Of a DNA stretch of 16,658 bases, positions 653-15,367 are shown piece after piece. The notes beneath the pieces were generated by a model. It was given only the letters and a program-made list of their open reading frames with translations. It was not told where the DNA came from and did not search any database. Source of the stretch: an uncultured Eubacteriales bacterium (GTDB taxonomy: Bacteria > Bacillota_A > Clostridia > Lachnospirales > Cellulosilyticaceae); assembly GCA_900556665.1 (NCBI GenBank), contig USPX01000025.1:1-16658 (forward strand), read 5' to 3'. A program made the position numbers and the translations under genes. Position 1 is the first letter of the stretch; each line of letters starts with the position of its first letter.

Positions 653-2386
653 ATGATTAAAAAATTAGCAGGCTGTATCAGAGAGTACAAAAAAGCATCG
701 CTTTTAACGCCGCTATTCATGGTTTTAGAAGTTACCATGGAAGTAATCATTCCAATATTAATGGCTCAGCTTATTGATAAAGGAATTGATCAAGGTGATA
801 TGGGATACATTGCTAAAATGGGAATTATTTTAGCAATATCATGTGTTATGTCCTTAAGTTTTGGTGCTCTTTCAGGAAGATTTGCGGCGATTGCATCAGC
901 AGGTTTTGCAAAGAACTTAAGACACGACATGTACTATAATGTACAAAACTTCTCATTCTCAAATATTGATAAATTTTCAAGCGCAAGTATTGTAACACGT
1001 TTAACAACGGACGTTACAAACGTACAAAATTCATATCAGATGATTATAAGAATTGCGGTACGTGCACCAATGATTTTAATTTTTTCATTAGCAATGGCAT
1101 TTACAATTAGTGCAAAGCTAGCATGTATCTTCTTAATCACTATTCCAATTTTAGGTGGCGGTTTATTCTTTATTGTTTACAAAGTTCACCCAATCTTTGA
1201 AAAAGTATTCCGTACATATGATAAGTTAAATAACGTTGTACAAGAAAACTTACACGGAATCCGCGTTGTTAAATCTTTCGTTAGAGAAGATGTAGAAGAA
1301 AAGAAATTCACAGATATCTCAAAAGAGATTTATACAGACTTTACAAGAGCTGAGAAGACTATTGCTTTCAATGGTCCACTTATGCAATTTTCAATGTATT
1401 TATGTATGATTTTAATCTCGTGGTTTGGTGCAAGATTAATCGTGGGTGGTGAGCTTACAACTGGTGAGCTTATGAGTCTTATTACTTATGCAATGCAAAT
1501 CTTAATGGGACTTATGATGCTTTCAATGGTATTCGTTATGATTATTATTTCTGAAGCATCAGCTAAAAGAATTGTAGAAATCTTAGATGAACAAAGTGAC
1601 TTAACAAATGGTGCAAATCCTATTAAAGAAGTAAAAGATGGTAGCATTACATTTGAAAATGTTAACTTTAGTTATGCAAAACGTGCAGACAAATTATGTC
1701 TTAGCAATGTGAATATTGATATCAAATCTGGTGAAACAATTGGGATCATTGGTGGTACTGGTAGTTCAAAATCTAGTTTCGTACAACTTATCCCACGTTT
1801 ATATGATGTCACAGAAGGTAAAGTCACTGTTGGCGGTATAGACGTTAGAAATTATGATATCGAATCACTTCGTAATGAAGTAGCTATGGTACTTCAAAAG
1901 AATGTACTATTCTCAGGAACTATTAAAGAAAACTTACGTTGGGGTAATGAAAACGCTACTGACGAAGAATTAATTCATGTATGTAAACTTGCACAAGCTC
2001 ATGATTTCGTATCTACTTTCCCAGAAGGTTATGCTACATATATTGAGCAAGGTGGAACTAACGTATCAGGTGGTCAAAAACAAAGACTTTGTATCGCAAG
2101 AGCACTTCTTAAAAAACCTAAAATTCTTATTTTAGATGACTCTACAAGTGCTGTAGATACAAAAACAGATGCACTTATTCGTAAGGCGTTTGCAGAAGAA
2201 ATCCCAGATACAACTAAAATTATTATTGCACAACGTATTTCTTCTATTGAACATGCAGATAAAATTATCGTTCTTGACAATGGTAAAGTAGATGCAGTAG
2301 GTACACATGAAGAATTATTAGCATCTAATGCAATTTACCAAGAGGTTTATACTTCACAAACTAAGGGAGGTGAAGATCATGAGTAG
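653..2386 (+). CDS. Heterodimeric ABC exporter, subunit with the degenerate ATP site (BmrC/TM287-like)
   Basis: A 577-residue half-transporter. An N-terminal transmembrane domain (about 1-305, six predicted helices) is followed by a nucleotide-binding domain (about 330-570). It starts at ATG 653 behind AAGGAGG (641-647). The signature VSGGQ (471-475) is intact. The ATP site formed by its own motifs is degenerate: Asp496 stands in the Walker B motif (ILILDD) where the catalytic Glu should be, and Gln527 replaces the switch His (IAQRIS). Both changes are typical of the non-catalytic site in heterodimeric exporters such as TM287/288 and BmrCD. In addition, the Walker A motif reads GGTGSSKSS, with Ser372 in place of a Gly that is nearly invariant. 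It overlaps the next gene by 8 bases, which implies translational coupling and a fixed 1:1 partnership. A drug or lipid export role is inferred from family and MarR context. Confidence 0.9.
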   Translation: MIKKLAGCIREYKKASLLTPLFMVLEVTMEVIIPILMAQLIDKGIDQGDMGYIAKMGIILAISCVMSLSFGALSGRFAAIASAGFAKNLRHDMYYNVQNFSFSNIDKFSSASIVTRLTTDVTNVQNSYQMIIRIAVRAPMILIFSLAMAFTISAKLACIFLITIPILGGGLFFIVYKVHPIFEKVFRTYDKLNNVVQENLHGIRVVKSFVREDVEEKKFTDISKEIYTDFTRAEKTIAFNGPLMQFSMYLCMILISWFGARLIVGGELTTGELMSLITYAMQILMGLMMLSMVFVMIIISEASAKRIVEILDEQSDLTNGANPIKEVKDGSITFENVNFSYAKRADKLCLSNVNIDIKSGETIGIIGGTGSSKSSFVQLIPRLYDVTEGKVTVGGIDVRNYDIESLRNEVAMVLQKNVLFSGTIKENLRWGNENATDEELIHVCKLAQAHDFVSTFPEGYATYIEQGGTNVSGGQKQRLCIARALLKKPKILILDDSTSAVDTKTDALIRKAFAEEIPDTTKIIIAQRISSIEHADKIIVLDNGKVDAVGTHEELLASNAIYQEVYTSQTKGGEDHE

Positions 2387-4283
2387 AGGTCCTATGAGAG
2401 GTCCAGGCCCAAAAGGATTTGGTCCAAAACAAAAACCAGATAAGGCAACAATGAAACGTTTATTAGGTTACCTTGGTGGTTATAAACTTCAATTTATCAC
2501 AGTACTTGTGTGTATTTTAATAAGTGCCTTAGTAGGTGTAGCAAGTTCAATGTTCTTAAAAACACTTATTGATAGCTATATTGCACCTTTATTATTAGAA
2601 GCAAATCCTGTATTTGATGGTTTATTAAGAGCTATTTTAATCATGGCAGGCATCTACATGGTAGGTGTAGTTTCAACTTACCTTTATAACTATTTAATGG
2701 TATTTATTGCACAAGGTATTTTAAAAGAAATTCGTGATAAAATGTTTGCACATATGCAAAAACTCCCTATTCGTTACTTTGATACACATACACATGGGGA
2801 TATCATGAGTTACTATACAAATGATACAGATACATTAAGACAAATGCTTTCACAAAGTATTCCTCAAGTATTCTCATCTGTTATTACCATCGTATCAGTA
2901 TTCTGTGCGATGGTATATACAAGTATCTACTTAACAATTTTCGTTATCTTTTTTGTATTTTTAATGATGCAAGTGACTAAGAAAATTGGTGGAAATAGTG
3001 CGAAATACTTTATGAAACAACAACAATCAATTGGTAAATTAAATGGTTTCATTGAAGAAATGATCCATGGACAAAAGGTTGTAAAAGTATTCTGTCATGA
3101 AGAAAAAGCAAAACAAGACTTTGATAAATTAAATGAAGAACTTTGCGATAATGCAACACAGGCTAATAGCTTTGCAAATATCCTTATGCCTATCATGGCT
3201 AACCTTGGAAACTTACAGTTCGTTTTAATTGCCACACTAGGAGGATTCCTTACACTTAAAGGTGTAGGTGGACTTACAATTGGTGGTCTTATTGCTTTCT
3301 TACAACTTAGCAGAAGTTTCACAATGCCTATCGGTCAAGTATCACAACAAATCAATGCTATTGTTATGGCACTTGCAGGGGCAAAACGTATCTTCGAAGT
3401 AATGGATGAAGCACCAGAAACAGATGAAGGATATGTAACATTAGTTAACGCCAAATACGAAGGCGAAAACTTAGTAGAAACACCAGAACATACAGGTATC
3501 TGGGCGTGGAAACATCCACATGGTGATGGCAGTATCACTTATACAAAACTTGAAGGGGATGTTACACTTAATGAAGTAGACTTCGGATATGTAGAAAACA
3601 AAATCGTACTTCACGATATTTCTCTTGAAGCACTTCCAGGTGAAAAAGTTGCTTTCGTAGGTTCTACAGGAGCTGGTAAAACAACTATTACAAATCTTAT
3701 TAATCGTTTCTATGATATTGCTGATGGTAAAATCCGTTACGATGGGATTAACATCAACAAAATTAAAAAAGATGATTTACGTCGTTCATTAGGGGTAGTA
3801 CTTCAAGAAGTTAACCTCTTCACAGGAACAGTTATGGAAAACATCCGTTACGGTAAAATGGATGCAACAGATGAAGAATGTATTAATGCAGCGAAACTTG
3901 CTAATGCTCATGACTTCATTACTAGACTTCCAGAAGGCTATAACACAGTTCTTTCTGGAGATGGTTCAGGATTATCACAAGGACAAAGACAACTTATCTC
4001 TATCGCTAGAGCAGCAGTTGCCGATCCACCAGTAATGATCCTCGACGAAGCAACGTCAAGTATTGATACACGTACAGAAGCAATCGTTCAAAGAGGGATG
4101 GATGCTTTAATGAAAGGGCGTACAGTATTTGTAATTGCGCACAGACTTTCAACAGTTAAAAACTCAGATGATATCATGGTACTTGAACAAGGTAGAATTA
4201 TCGAAAAAGGTAACCATGAAGAACTTATCGCAAAACATGGTAAGTACTATCAACTCTATACAGGTGCCTTTGAGTTGGAGTAA
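2379..4283 (+). CDS. Heterodimeric ABC exporter, subunit with the catalytic ATP site (BmrD/TM288-like)
   Basis: The partner half-transporter, 634 residues. The start is ATG 2379: AAGGGAGGTGA (2363-2373) precedes it, and the start overlaps the stop codon of the upstream gene. A longer in-frame reading from 2328 lacks such a site. The N-terminus is rich in Gly and Pro (MSRGPMRGPGPKGFGPKQKP), followed by a six-helix membrane domain and a C-terminal ATPase. All ATPase motifs are canonical: Walker A GSTGAGKTT (428-436), signature LSQGQ (532-536), Walker B VMILDE with catalytic Glu557, and switch His588 (VIAHRLST). An insertion of about 40 residues between membrane and ATPase domains (about 351-392, containing ETPEHTGIWAWKHPHGDG) occurs in a clostridial branch of the family. 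The complementary site quality of the two subunits identifies an obligate heterodimer. Its stop codon lies in the first bases of a palindromic repeat. Confidence 0.92.
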   Translation: MSRGPMRGPGPKGFGPKQKPDKATMKRLLGYLGGYKLQFITVLVCILISALVGVASSMFLKTLIDSYIAPLLLEANPVFDGLLRAILIMAGIYMVGVVSTYLYNYLMVFIAQGILKEIRDKMFAHMQKLPIRYFDTHTHGDIMSYYTNDTDTLRQMLSQSIPQVFSSVITIVSVFCAMVYTSIYLTIFVIFFVFLMMQVTKKIGGNSAKYFMKQQQSIGKLNGFIEEMIHGQKVVKVFCHEEKAKQDFDKLNEELCDNATQANSFANILMPIMANLGNLQFVLIATLGGFLTLKGVGGLTIGGLIAFLQLSRSFTMPIGQVSQQINAIVMALAGAKRIFEVMDEAPETDEGYVTLVNAKYEGENLVETPEHTGIWAWKHPHGDGSITYTKLEGDVTLNEVDFGYVENKIVLHDISLEALPGEKVAFVGSTGAGKTTITNLINRFYDIADGKIRYDGININKIKKDDLRRSLGVVLQEVNLFTGTVMENIRYGKMDATDEECINAAKLANAHDFITRLPEGYNTVLSGDGSGLSQGQRQLISIARAAVADPPVMILDEATSSIDTRTEAIVQRGMDALMKGRTVFVIAHRLSTVKNSDDIMVLEQGRIIEKGNHEELIAKHGKYYQLYTGAFELE

Positions 4284-4437
4284 CTAAAAGGCTCGCCCTG
4301 TGATGAGGGTCTCATAGCTACACCTTACGTAATTTGTGATACTCTAAGTTCGATAATTAAATGGGCGGTCGAAAACTCGCTTCGCTCGGACACTCGACCT
4401 AAAAACGCTTTAATTATCTTCACTAAGAGTATCAACA
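4282..4437 (+). repeat. Palindromic repeat, copy A, left part (interrupted by the IS110 element)
   Basis: The left arm and centre of a large imperfect palindrome. The left arm begins at the stop codon of the ABC gene and includes CCCTGTGATGAGGG and TAATTTGTGATACTCTAAG. The centre contains GATAATTAAA (4352-4361) paired with TTTAATTATC, enclosing GGTCGA...TCGACC. The rest of the right arm lies beyond the IS element at 6027-6080. When the IS is removed, the two arms align along nearly their whole ~80-base length. Related copies lie at 6129-6252 and 15167-15367. Copies A and C both begin within a few bases of a stop codon, so the folded RNA may act as a 3' end or terminator. Confidence 0.85.
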
Positions 4438-4479
4438 AAACCCATATGAAGCTCGTAATTCACAAGCTATAATGAAAAC

Positions 4480-4660
4480 TTTTTTCTACTACTGGCAATA
4501 CTCTTAAAGAGTAGATTTTGTTGCTTGTAGTAATAATGGAATTAATAATCCGTCAACAAAACTAAGCATAACGACTGTAAAAGAACAAGGTATTGTACTG
4601 ATGAGTACGTATAGGAAAATTTATAAGAGACAGTTGTTATAAATCTACTCAATACCTTAA
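4480..4660 (+). ncRNA. Putative bridge RNA of the IS110 element
   Basis: The noncoding left end folds into the expected modules. First is a 5' stem-loop in which TACTAC (4487-4492) and GCAA (4495-4498) pair with TTGC (4521-4524) and GTAGTA (4527-4532), with an inner TACTCT/AGAGTA hairpin (4499-4513). Next is a loop region containing TCAACAAA (4553-4560), identical to the eight target bases ending in the core (4432-4439). Last is a domain closed by a perfect 9-bp stem AAGGTATTG (4587-4595)/CAATACCTT (4650-4658). It contains ATAGGAAA (4611-4618), identical to the right end plus core of the element, and an 8-bp stem ATTTATAA/TTATAAAT (4619-4626/4637-4644). The order target guide, then donor guide matches IS621. 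Right-hand guides are unclear: only GTAA (4577-4580) fits the target. A TATAAT at 4468-4473 would start the RNA near 4480. The RNA ends are estimates. Confidence 0.65.
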
Positions 4661-4678
4661 AAAGAAAAGAGTATATTT

Positions 4679-5917
4679 ATGGACGCTATTATTAAAACAT
4701 GTGCTGGTTTAGATATTCATCTTAATACAATAGTTGCTTGTGTATTAAGTGGTGAACTTGACCGCACACCAAAAAAAGAAATCAAAGAGTTTTCAACAAC
4801 AACTAAAAGCTTGTTAGAATTACTAGATTATTTAACTGAAAAAGGTTGTACACATGTTGCTATGGAAAGCACAGGTGTCTATTGGAAACCCGTCTGGAAC
4901 ATCTTAGAATCAGGCGGGTTTAACATTATTATTGCAAATGCACATAATATAAAGAACTTACCAGGTAGAAAAACAGATATTAAGGATGCAGAATGGATTG
5001 CGAAACTTTTAAGATGTGGCTTAATAGATAAAAGCTTTATTCCTAGTACAGAAATCAGAGATTTACGATATCTTACAAGATATAGGCGACGTCTATGTGG
5101 TGATTTAAATAAAGAAATGAATCATATCCATAAGACACTTCAAGATGCGAACATTAAGCTTTCTAGTGTTTTATCAGATATCTTTTGTGTTACTGGAACT
5201 AAAGTTTTATTAAGAATTATGAATAACGAACCACTTGATTGGGCTTTTGTAAACAGTATTTATACTGGTGCAATAGGTGCAAGTTTAAAAGCTAAACCCG
5301 ATGAGTTTTATGAAGCAATCAATGGCAGAATTCGAACATTTCACCGAAAAATGCTTAAAGTACACTATGACCATATTTTATTTATTCAGAGTCAAATCGA
5401 GGAGATAGAATCTCAAATCGAAGAAGCACTTGAAGAACATCAAGAAAGTTTAGAAATATTAACATCAATTCCAGGTATAGATGTTAAATCAGCTTCAGTA
5501 ATTATTGCTGAAATAGGTACGGACATGACACAATTCCCTAGTGCTAGCAGTATAAGCTCGTGGGCAGGTGTAAGTCCTGGAAATAATGAAAGTGCTGGTA
5601 AAAAAAAAAGTAGCAAAATCGTAAAAGGGAATAAGTGGTTATTATGTGTACTCTGTCAATGTGCCTGGGCTGCAAGTATGAAAAAGGGAAGTTATTGCAA
5701 TAAAAAATACTGGAATATGGTAAGTCGTATGGGAAAACAAAAAGCAATCGTAGCGATTGCTCATTATCAGCTTAGATTGTGTTATACGTTGTTGAAAAAT
5801 AAAAAGAAATATGAAGAGCGAAACTATGATTATCTCAAGAAAAAAGAAACACAAAGAACTCAAAGATTAATCAAGGAATTACAGAAATCAGGTTATAACA
5901 TTCAAAAGATAGTTTAA
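4679..5917 (+). CDS. IS110-family DEDD transposase (recombinase)
   Basis: A 412-residue recombinase. The N-terminal RuvC-like domain carries the DEDD acidic residues: Asp12 (GLDIH), Glu63 (MESTGVYWKP), Asp100 and Asp103 (GRKTDIKDAEW). A coiled-coil stretch (about 235-260) leads to the C-terminal transposase domain. That domain begins at SIPGIDVKSASVIIAEIG (about 263-280) and includes WAGVSPGNNESAGKKKSSKI. Ser305 in NNESAG is the likely nucleophilic serine by analogy with the conserved S-G of the family. The gene is intact and of full length, so the element may still be active. The ribosome binding site is weak (AAAAGAG before ATG 4679), in keeping with low transposase production. The protein would act with the RNA encoded just upstream to join a circular element to its target. 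Confidence 0.93.
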   Translation: MDAIIKTCAGLDIHLNTIVACVLSGELDRTPKKEIKEFSTTTKSLLELLDYLTEKGCTHVAMESTGVYWKPVWNILESGGFNIIIANAHNIKNLPGRKTDIKDAEWIAKLLRCGLIDKSFIPSTEIRDLRYLTRYRRRLCGDLNKEMNHIHKTLQDANIKLSSVLSDIFCVTGTKVLLRIMNNEPLDWAFVNSIYTGAIGASLKAKPDEFYEAINGRIRTFHRKMLKVHYDHILFIQSQIEEIESQIEEALEEHQESLEILTSIPGIDVKSASVIIAEIGTDMTQFPSASSISSWAGVSPGNNESAGKKKSSKIVKGNKWLLCVLCQCAWAASMKKGSYCNKKYWNMVSRMGKQKAIVAIAHYQLRLCYTLLKNKKKYEERNYDYLKKKETQRTQRLIKELQKSGYNIQKIV

Positions 5918-5931
5918 TGCCTAATACAACT

Positions 5932-5997
5932 AGCTCACCTTAATTAAAGGTCTTTAAAAATATTACCTAAAGATCTCTAGTTAAGGTGAGCTTTTTT
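5932..5997 (+). terminator. Rho-independent terminator of the transposase gene
   Basis: AGCTCACCTTAA (5932-5943) and TTAAGGTGAGCT (5981-5992) form a perfect 12-bp stem, with a smaller imperfect hairpin (AAAGGTCTTT/AAAGATCTCT) inside. TTTTTT follows (5992-5997). It lies 15 bases after the transposase stop codon, inside the element's right end. Confidence 0.85.
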
Positions 5998-6026
5998 AAA
6001 CTTCAAGGCATTGAGGTTTTCATAGG

Positions 6027-6080
6027 AATTACTTCAGAGGTAGCATATGATCCCCTCATCACAGGGCTTTCTTTATAGTT
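6027..6080 (+). repeat. Palindromic repeat, copy A, right-arm remainder
   Basis: The outer part of copy A's right arm, displaced by the IS110 insertion. CCCTCATCACAGGG (6055-6068) is the exact reverse complement of CCCTGTGATGAGGG in the left arm (4296-4309), and CTTTATAGTT (6071-6080) mirrors AACTAAAAGG at 4282-4291. The segment from ACTTCAGAGGTAGCAT onward also repeats directly in copy B, 168 bases further on. Confidence 0.8.
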
Positions 6081-6128
6081 AAACTCTGCGGCAGCGAGGG
6101 TGGATAGAAAGGACTTTGTGTGGAAGTG

Positions 6129-6252
6129 AGTTGAAAACTACGTTCAAACAATGCGCTAAAACCTTTTGACATATCTTCACTAAGACTATCAACAGATTAC
6201 TCCAGAGGTAGCATAGCCAGTGCTCATCCCCGGGACTCTTTTTTAGTTAAAC
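6129..6252 (+). repeat. Palindromic repeat, copy B (centre plus right arm, no IS)
   Basis: A partial copy containing a centre like copy A (GTTGAAAACTACGTTCAAAC), the segment ATCTTCACTAAGACTATCAACAG and the arm ACTCCAGAGGTAGCAT...TTAGTTAAAC. Copy A has the same right-arm order but with the IS110 inserted after ATCAACA. I see no good matching left arm, so this copy is truncated or diverged. It supplies the empty-site sequence used to place the IS borders. The stretch 6253-6329 holds nothing else I recognise. Confidence 0.7.
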
Positions 6253-15166: not shown

Positions 15167-15367
15167 AAGGTATCGCAAATAGGCCCGCAGAGGTAGGGGG
15201 GAGTGAGATGCTGCTCCTTACACAATTTGTGATAGGCTAAGCCAATATAATAAAAGCAACAGGCGAAACTCACTCACTGCGTTCGCTCAAACAGTCGCCT
15301 TAAGAGCACTTTTATCCACAGGCATCCTCTCAATCCCCCCTACCTCAGCTTGGTATTTGGATACCTT
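15167..15367 (+). repeat. Palindromic repeat, copy C
   Basis: A 200-base imperfect palindrome starting four bases after the SLH-protein stop codon. The outer ends AAGGTATC (15167-15174) and GATACCTT (15360-15367) pair. GAGGTAGGGGGG (15186-15197) pairs exactly with CCCCCCTACCTC (15335-15346). ATAAAAG and CTTTTAT, and AGGCGA and TCGCCT, pair further in. CCTTACACAATTTGTGATA is shared with copy A's left arm (CCTTACGTAATTTGTGATA), and the centre GAAACTCACTCACTGCGTTCGCTC resembles copy A's GAAAACTCGCTTCGCTC. Its right arm appears shortened where copy A carries the IS110 target. Position after a gene suggests a 3'-end hairpin role. Confidence 0.75.

Follow-up and report, generated by a model that had tools for sequence, protein, structure and literature searches.

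The closest described systems are IS621, ISEc21 and the IS1111 elements, for which we draw on portions of PMC11208158, PMC11208160 and PMC11187229. In IS621 the target loop of the bridge RNA reads stem, left target guide (LTG), hairpin, right target guide (RTG), stem; the LTG (A50–U58) precedes the RTG (G77–G80), according to the consulted part of PMC11208158. The consulted part of PMC11187229 separates IS110-type from IS1111 elements. IS110-type members have an upstream RNA, subterminal repeats that are absent or short, and the LTG before the RTG, an order that rests on one member, ISEc21; the motif G--P----SG is IS110-type, and transposases of 395–455 aa are found in the subgroup of IS110 itself. 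In IS1111 the noncoding region is downstream and the subterminal inverted repeats measure 7–17 bp; a few members are reported with upstream regions.

How does the present locus compare? The window, by which we mean the whole stretch of 16,658 nucleotides that was analysed, contains an IS110-family element (4440–6026) whose noncoding left end very probably encodes a bridge RNA (table 1). We put at about 0.85 the probability that the target loop of this RNA reads stem, RTG, hairpin, LTG, stem, a circular permutation of the IS621 loop, and that the 412-aa recombinase uses it. This rests on matching sequences, on co-variation among related elements, on target sites found empty and on conserved stems; transcription, recombinase binding, a circular intermediate and strand exchange would follow by analogy with IS621.

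Table 1. Positions in the window of the element, its target and the parts of the candidate bridge RNA.
Feature	Position	Strand	Evidence
IS110-family element, from the first base of the left end to the last of the right end	4440..6026	+	LDG match at right end; joined flanks against uninterrupted repeat copies
IS110-family recombinase, 412 aa	4679..5917	+	Pfam, NCBIfam, PDB sequence relatives
Left part of interrupted palindromic target repeat	4283..4439	+	flank analysis
Right part of interrupted palindromic target repeat	6027..6088	+	flank analysis
Left target TCAACA	4432..4437	+	empty copies
Core AA, left copy	4438..4439	+	gapless register with empty copies
Core AA, right copy	6027..6028	+	empty copies
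Right target TTACT	6029..6033	+	empty copies; pairs with 4529–4534
Left donor: right end ATAGG	6022..6026	+	LDG match
TATAAT, possible −10 box of RNA, no matching −35	4468..4473	+	by reading
Candidate bridge RNA, ends inferred	4480..4660	+	aligned with 34 relatives and with 32 relatives
Target-loop stem, 5' strand GCTT	4523..4526	+	local fold; stem swap test z 3.3
Right target guide (RTG) AGTAAT	4529..4534	+	complementary to A-TTACT, the right-hand core base followed by the right target; unpaired in local fold
Target-loop hairpin between RTG and LTG	4536..4553	+	local fold; also whole-RNA fold
Left target guide (LTG) TCAACAAA	4553..4560	+	match to left flank; co-variation; 4554–4560 unpaired, 4553 paired in local fold
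Target-loop stem, 3' strand AAGC	4564..4567	+	local fold; stem swap test
Donor-loop stem, 5' strand ATAACGACTGT	4568..4578	+	whole-RNA fold; stem swap test z 12.9
Donor-loop hairpin GTACTGATGAGTAC, directly preceding LDG	4595..4608	+	inner pairs, local fold of 4584–4664; read at the corresponding position in relatives
Left donor guide (LDG) ATAGGAA = right end ATAGG + core	4611..4617	+	own against swapped right ends
Donor-loop stem, 3' strand ACAGTTGTTAT	4630..4640	+	whole-RNA fold; stem swap test

The recombinase carries the domains PF01548 (DEDD_Tnp_IS110) and PF02371 (Transposase_20), at 100.1 and 75.9 bits in Pfam, and scores 274.3 bits against the NCBIfam IS110 model NF033542 (cut-off 140). 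Its relatives in the PDB by sequence, at E ≤ 0.001, are IS621 and ISCro4 only. Where the motif G--P----SG is expected the window reads GVSPGNNESAG, with SA in place of SG. The noncoding part of the element is 239 nt upstream of the gene (4440–4678) as against 109 nt downstream (5918–6026). A repeat search of the two ends found no inverted pair of at least 12 nt between them; a 6-nt pair, TATGAA/TTCATA, is visible by eye. Downstream of the transposase stop codon, and before the right end, lies a 25-nt inverted repeat (5932–5992, 88% complementary), a terminator-like hairpin within the element.

Where was the element inserted? Its flanks are two parts of one imperfect palindrome of roughly 220 nt, which when joined has a predicted fold of −90.3 kcal/mol. 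The target recurs in the inverted left arm of the palindrome as TATC-ACAAATTAC, and an intact copy with ACTATCAACAGATTACTCC lies at 6185–6203 of the window. Positions 2000–4290 are 91% identical to the genome of Cellulosilyticum ruminicola (G002, the genome of locus L023), which makes a Cellulosilyticum the probable host. The joined flanks were compared with seven stretches of that genome, six further repeat places and the syntenic place. They align in one piece over the junction in 6 of the 7; three of these six alignments differ by at most 1 base in length and three have 8–9 extra bases at some point within the piece. The syntenic place, one of the seven stretches fetched, is without such a repeat. 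Uninterrupted copies read TATCATCAAATTACTAC (L199), TATCAATAAATTACTCC (L201) and TATCATAAAATTACTCC (L198), and thereby define the left target as ...TATCAACA, the core as AA and the right target as TTACTTC. The comparison shows no duplication beyond the core AA.

The target belongs to a dispersed palindromic repeat family of Cellulosilyticum, about 220 nt long (window 4283–4439, 6027–6088 and 6172–6215; L197–L202), with six further copies from C. ruminicola and a weak partial match at window 15210–15241. Several elements of the same clade sit in palindromic repeats: the window element, L072, and L085, L090–L092 and their kin (G117, G159, G190, G1220 and others), whose targets are short palindromic repeats such as GTAATCG-AAAAAC-CGATTAC, intact copies of which adjoin L091. 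In Cohnella rhizosphaerae (L001, L002, L025–L029) an A run followed by an inverted repeat is seen at 6 of 7 insertion sites, judged by eye from the right flanks. These sites resemble the tail of an opposite-strand terminator, and the guides are ACACAAA and a T run.

The initial annotation had noticed that TCAACAAA occurs both at 4553–4560 and at 4432–4439, the target bases ending in the core. This is correct, and the string common to the guide and the left flank is in fact 10 nt, TCAACAAAAC, reaching 2 nt into the left end. Equally correct is the donor match: ATAGGAAA (4611–4618) equals ATAGG of the right end (6022–6026), the core AA (6027–6028) and the first left-end base A (4440). Both left guides finish on the common AA core, and the target loop comes before the donor loop, as had been described. 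How readily might such matches arise by chance? When 4480–4678 was compared with 4425–4445, a match of at least 8 nt appeared in 6.65% of 2000 dinucleotide shuffles and one of at least 10 nt in 0.45%, so the caution that had been voiced about 8-mers was right.

We turned, as had been proposed, to relatives. These came from one-per-species genomes, in which 176 elements were placed by tblastn; some places were fetched twice and were merged by clustering at 85%. The viral_contigs set held no relative of the element and no exact copy of the empty target, and among phages there were 6 records, all below 60% identity. The LTG test covered 154 of the 176, the 22 skipped being 10 without a 5' side, 7 without the anchor motif and 5 below 37% identity. 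The relatives carry a stretch of 7–13 nt, in most cases preceded by a conserved CCCG or CCG, that is identical to their own left flank and varies between elements. Over 49 clusters, with no selection on the match, the longest match of flank to guide region averages 8.16–8.27 nt with own flanks and 5.55–5.57 nt with swapped flanks (three draws; s.d. of the mean 0.13–0.15). Own matches reach at least 8 nt in 71–73% of the clusters, against 4–5% with swapped flanks. The own match falls below 7 nt in 10 or 11 of the 49 cluster representatives; L072 and L080 have an 8-nt own match at another register, and the others may truly be without an LTG match. The guide region of the window shares at least 8 nt with the left flank of only 1 of the 48 other clusters. 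Retention of TCAACAAA in different targets was not seen; relatives inserted elsewhere carry other guides.

The LDG behaves in the same manner with respect to the other end. For this test and for the RTG we started from elements with an LTG run of at least 7 nt and a recognisable right-end motif (110 elements in 34 clusters, L072 being set by hand), with no filter on the RTG. In relatives the LDG follows a conserved CACG and equals the element's own right end plus core. In 33 clusters it matches its own end at 6.9 of 7 positions and the ends of other elements at 3.3 of 7, the position having been picked as the best own match; the left-end reading for L043 is visibly wrong. The core is AA in the window and AG or AT in some relatives. 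Thus the co-variation of both left guides, which track the insertion site and the element's right end, supports the earlier proposal of a bridge RNA in the upstream noncoding end.

Could the region instead be a structured leader of the transposase mRNA and nothing more, its guide-like matches being chance or leftovers? The DNA is AT-rich, a lone 8-nt match is not rare in shuffles, and a sigma-70 scan of 4380–4700 found no plus-strand promoter. That three separate guides each track their own partner over dozens of clusters, and that the stems are kept by compensating changes, makes this the least probable reading that we considered, and a very improbable one.

If the left guides lie as in IS621, where is the RTG? 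The initial annotation had found no convincing right-hand guides. The relatives carry a sequence complementary to the right target on the 5' side of the LTG, where it is bounded by the stem and by a hairpin mostly starting TGG; in the window we now place it at 4529–4534. Each right target was scored by its best complementary 5-, 6- and 7-mer, own against swapped, in 35 clusters (Cohnella having been added by hand). Own right targets exceed swapped ones, with z of 5.1–6.1, in the stretch from 40 to 14 nt upstream of the LTG; none of 400 permutations reaches the observed value in any of the 15 runs. At the IS621-like place, 8–34 nt after the LTG start, the same 35 clusters give no signal (z −0.4 to 1.4), and the next region 3' of it gives z of −0.7 to 0.9. 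The region 66–40 nt before the LTG has fewer pairs than with swapped targets (z −1.0 to −3.0), which is unexplained and counts against our reading. When right targets starting AA were removed, or at least 2 G/C were required in the first five bases (22 clusters each), the 5' side kept a z of 3.7–5.9 and the 3' side gave −1.5 to 0.6. The signal is therefore not carried by A-rich right targets.

A bridge RNA with the plain IS621 plan, its RTG 3' of the LTG and too short to detect, has to be weighed against these figures. IS621 itself has that plan, with only 4 RTG pairs (PMC11208158, part consulted), and by eye the IS621 copy in L180 shows ATCGGGCCT with GCGTAG 3' of it, against core CT + ACGC. 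However, the 3' place is silent in the very elements in which the 5' place is not, and the contrast persists without A-rich targets. We rejected an RTG 3' of the LTG and regard the plain plan as highly unlikely, if marginally less so than the leader.

RTG pairing was also tallied position by position. The set comprised 43 guide strings, with more than one from several clusters; for 12 names we placed the hairpin anchor by hand, and an offset of 0–2 nt was optimised alike for own and swapped. Pairing at R1–R6 is 0.87, 0.86, 0.74, 0.71, 0.56 and 0.41 for own targets and 0.58, 0.51, 0.47, 0.44, 0.39 and 0.27 for swapped ones. The right-hand core base co-varies with the RTG (z 4.7) whereas the left-hand core base does not (z 0.6; the same 43 guides). 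Individual pairs include GGCTCAC with GTGAGCC (L052) and GTGAGCG (L043), GGAACTT-CT with AG-AAGTTCC (L117) and GAACT-TT with AA-AGTTC (L072). Among sister copies in one genome, GCATT faces AATGC (L098, L126) and GCCTT faces AAGGC (L127); a fourth, L125, breaks the pairing rule by a mismatch at one position. Pairing is poor or absent in L084, L081, L156–L158, L162 and most of the L057 group, and partial in L006, L009, the L014 group, L076, L082, L094 and L107. Column-wise co-variation on a MAFFT alignment is slight for the right target because of a one-base misregister in the RTG, and for this reason scanning and anchored tests were used instead.

Do the predicted folds accommodate these guides? 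Folded locally, 4519–4571 forms an internal loop, closed by pairing around GCTT/AAGC and containing the hairpin 4536–4553, in which AGTAATA (4529–4535) and CAACAAA (4554–4560) are unpaired. Across relatives the two strands of the target-loop stem fit each other better than they fit the strands of other elements (z 3.3, 33 clusters), and compensating changes preserve the donor stem that follows directly (z 12.9, 34 clusters). The LDG has the hairpin GTACTGATGAGTAC on its 5' side and the second strand of the donor stem on its 3' side. In the free fold of the whole RNA the unpaired probability is 0.36 for the RTG, 0.87 for the LTG and 0.68 for the LDG, and keeping all guides unpaired costs 5.2 kcal/mol (−30.5 versus −35.7). 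We give co-variation more weight than this single energy calculation. Rfam returned two weak matches to microRNA families, far below the cut-offs.

Neither of the two stems drawn in the initial annotation was kept as drawn. The 5' hairpin TACTAC (4487–4492)/GTAGTA (4527–4532) is present in the free minimum-energy fold of 4480–4664, where it hides the RTG; as it overlaps this guide we rejected it as drawn. The perfect 9-bp stem AAGGTATTG (4587–4595)/CAATACCTT (4650–4658) exists, and forms when 4584–4664 is folded alone, with the 5' strand of the donor stem left out; it is absent from the whole-RNA fold. Only the nearest relative, L072, shares it, and taken as a general crossing helix it gives a swap-test z of 1.7. 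We rejected it as the main donor stem, the conserved stem being 4568–4578/4630–4640.

What might such an RNA do? Coming from the noncoding left end, it would let the 412-aa recombinase join the circular form to the target, both left guides ending on the core AA. Followed round the loop, the order in IS621 is LTG, hairpin, RTG, closing stem; in the window's clade it would be LTG, closing stem, RTG, hairpin. Closing stem and hairpin would trade places, so to speak, and the guides could keep theirs on the DNA; the helix closed by a loop and the helix carrying the RNA ends would be exchanged. The donor loop would be similarly arranged, with the LDG 3' of its hairpin.

The right donor guide is another matter. 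An ungapped own/swapped scan of 11 regions around the LDG, in 33 clusters, found none: no region shows convincing pairing, the best z being 2.7 and 2.2 at 35–55 nt after the LDG, and two regions are clearly negative. Is such a guide absent, or does it exist in an invariant or discontinuous form that escapes the test? The IS621 guide pairs discontinuously (PMC11208160, part consulted), by reading, CATG is retained at the left end of 31 of 33 clusters (CATATG in the window), and in the aligned relatives few parts of the RNA are as conserved as the segment that separates donor stem and hairpin. Set against the scan, these points leave the chances of a hidden guide evenly balanced. The guide's absence from the scan, the burial of the RTG in the free fold, the RTG exceptions and the L125 mismatch also count against the permuted bridge RNA.

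Measured against IS621 (PMC11208160 and PMC11208158, parts consulted), the earlier claim of a similar plan holds for the upstream RNA and the succession of target and donor loops. The LTG and LDG have the same sense as the left target and the right end that they match, the left guides include the core dinucleotide common to target and donor, and the DEDD recombinase has both domains. The plan departs from IS621 in that the RTG is 5' of the LTG, the donor hairpin precedes the LDG, the ungapped scan finds no right donor guide, the core is not CT and the recombinase has 412 rather than 326 aa. With IS1111-type seekRNA, in the consulted part of PMC11187229, the element shares the order of top-strand complement (RTG) before bottom-strand match (LTG); its donor domain folds with more than one hairpin, like the multi-loop donor domains of many IS1111 RNAs (PMC11208160, part consulted). 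Unlike IS1111, its RNA is upstream rather than downstream, it has no long subterminal inverted repeats, and its recombinase exceeds the 330–350 aa given in PMC11187229. The IS110-type ISEc21 seekRNA likewise has an upstream noncoding region and two short guides for the two target strands, but in the opposite order, its top-strand match being 3' of the bottom-strand match (same part of PMC11187229). The element thus combines IS110-type layout and transposase length with IS1111 guide order.

In a tree of 42 rows, for which the program warns of long branches and which has no proven IS1111 reference, the window groups with L072 (99/97) inside a clade of 35 rows, all long transposases and ISArsp3 (414 aa) among them; this clade stands apart (100/99) from IS621, ISEc32, ISEc20, ISSfl4 and three others. 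In the broad sense of ISfinder and NCBI the element has the IS110 domains, site-specific insertion, ends joined through a shared core and no long duplication. We file it as IS110 family in that broad sense, neither IS621-type bridge RNA nor IS1111.

We consider it likely that a large long-transposase subgroup of IS110, here mostly from Firmicutes genomes with some from Chloroflexota, uses circularly permuted bridge RNAs, in RTG–LTG order though upstream, the donor loop permuted too and an RNA right-donor guide perhaps absent. The text searched in PMC11208160, PMC12045711 and PMC11187229, figures aside, gives no description of the reversed order for an upstream IS110-type RNA; three IS110-group RNAs (ISPpu10, ISAar29 and ISHne5) are drawn in Extended Data Fig. 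10c of PMC11208160. If the proposal is true, guide order no longer separates IS110 from IS1111, a split drawn in the consulted part of PMC11187229, and the recombinase tolerates rewired RNA connectivity. Bridge RNAs are under development as programmable DNA recombination tools, and if an element of this subgroup were reprogrammed after the layout of IS621, the RTG would end up on the wrong side of the loop. A natural circular permutation would also be a means to ask how the recombinase reads its RNA. The rule is directly testable, since the sister copies L098 and L125–L127 of G1237 differ in both guides and targets.

A minor observation concerns the recombinase gene. At window 5600–5609, directly after the ESAG (catalytic-serine) motif, lies an in-frame GGT-A10-G, and an A run occupies the same place in L001, L016, L019, L020, L072, L086, L088, L106–L108, L114–L116, L137 and L146–L148. 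This looks like a bridge recombinase gene with programmed frameshifting or transcriptional slippage; the names IS110, IS116, IS902 and IS1111 were not found in the recoding literature of PMC1088944, PMC5009743 and PMC3711429. In 14 of 55 distinct rows the first frame stops shortly after a run of 8–10 A and the −1 frame stays open for 88–113 codons; in another 3 the run is 8 A and the open frame is +1. Copies in the one genome G1256 need opposite shifts, L115 and L148 on the one hand and L147 on the other.
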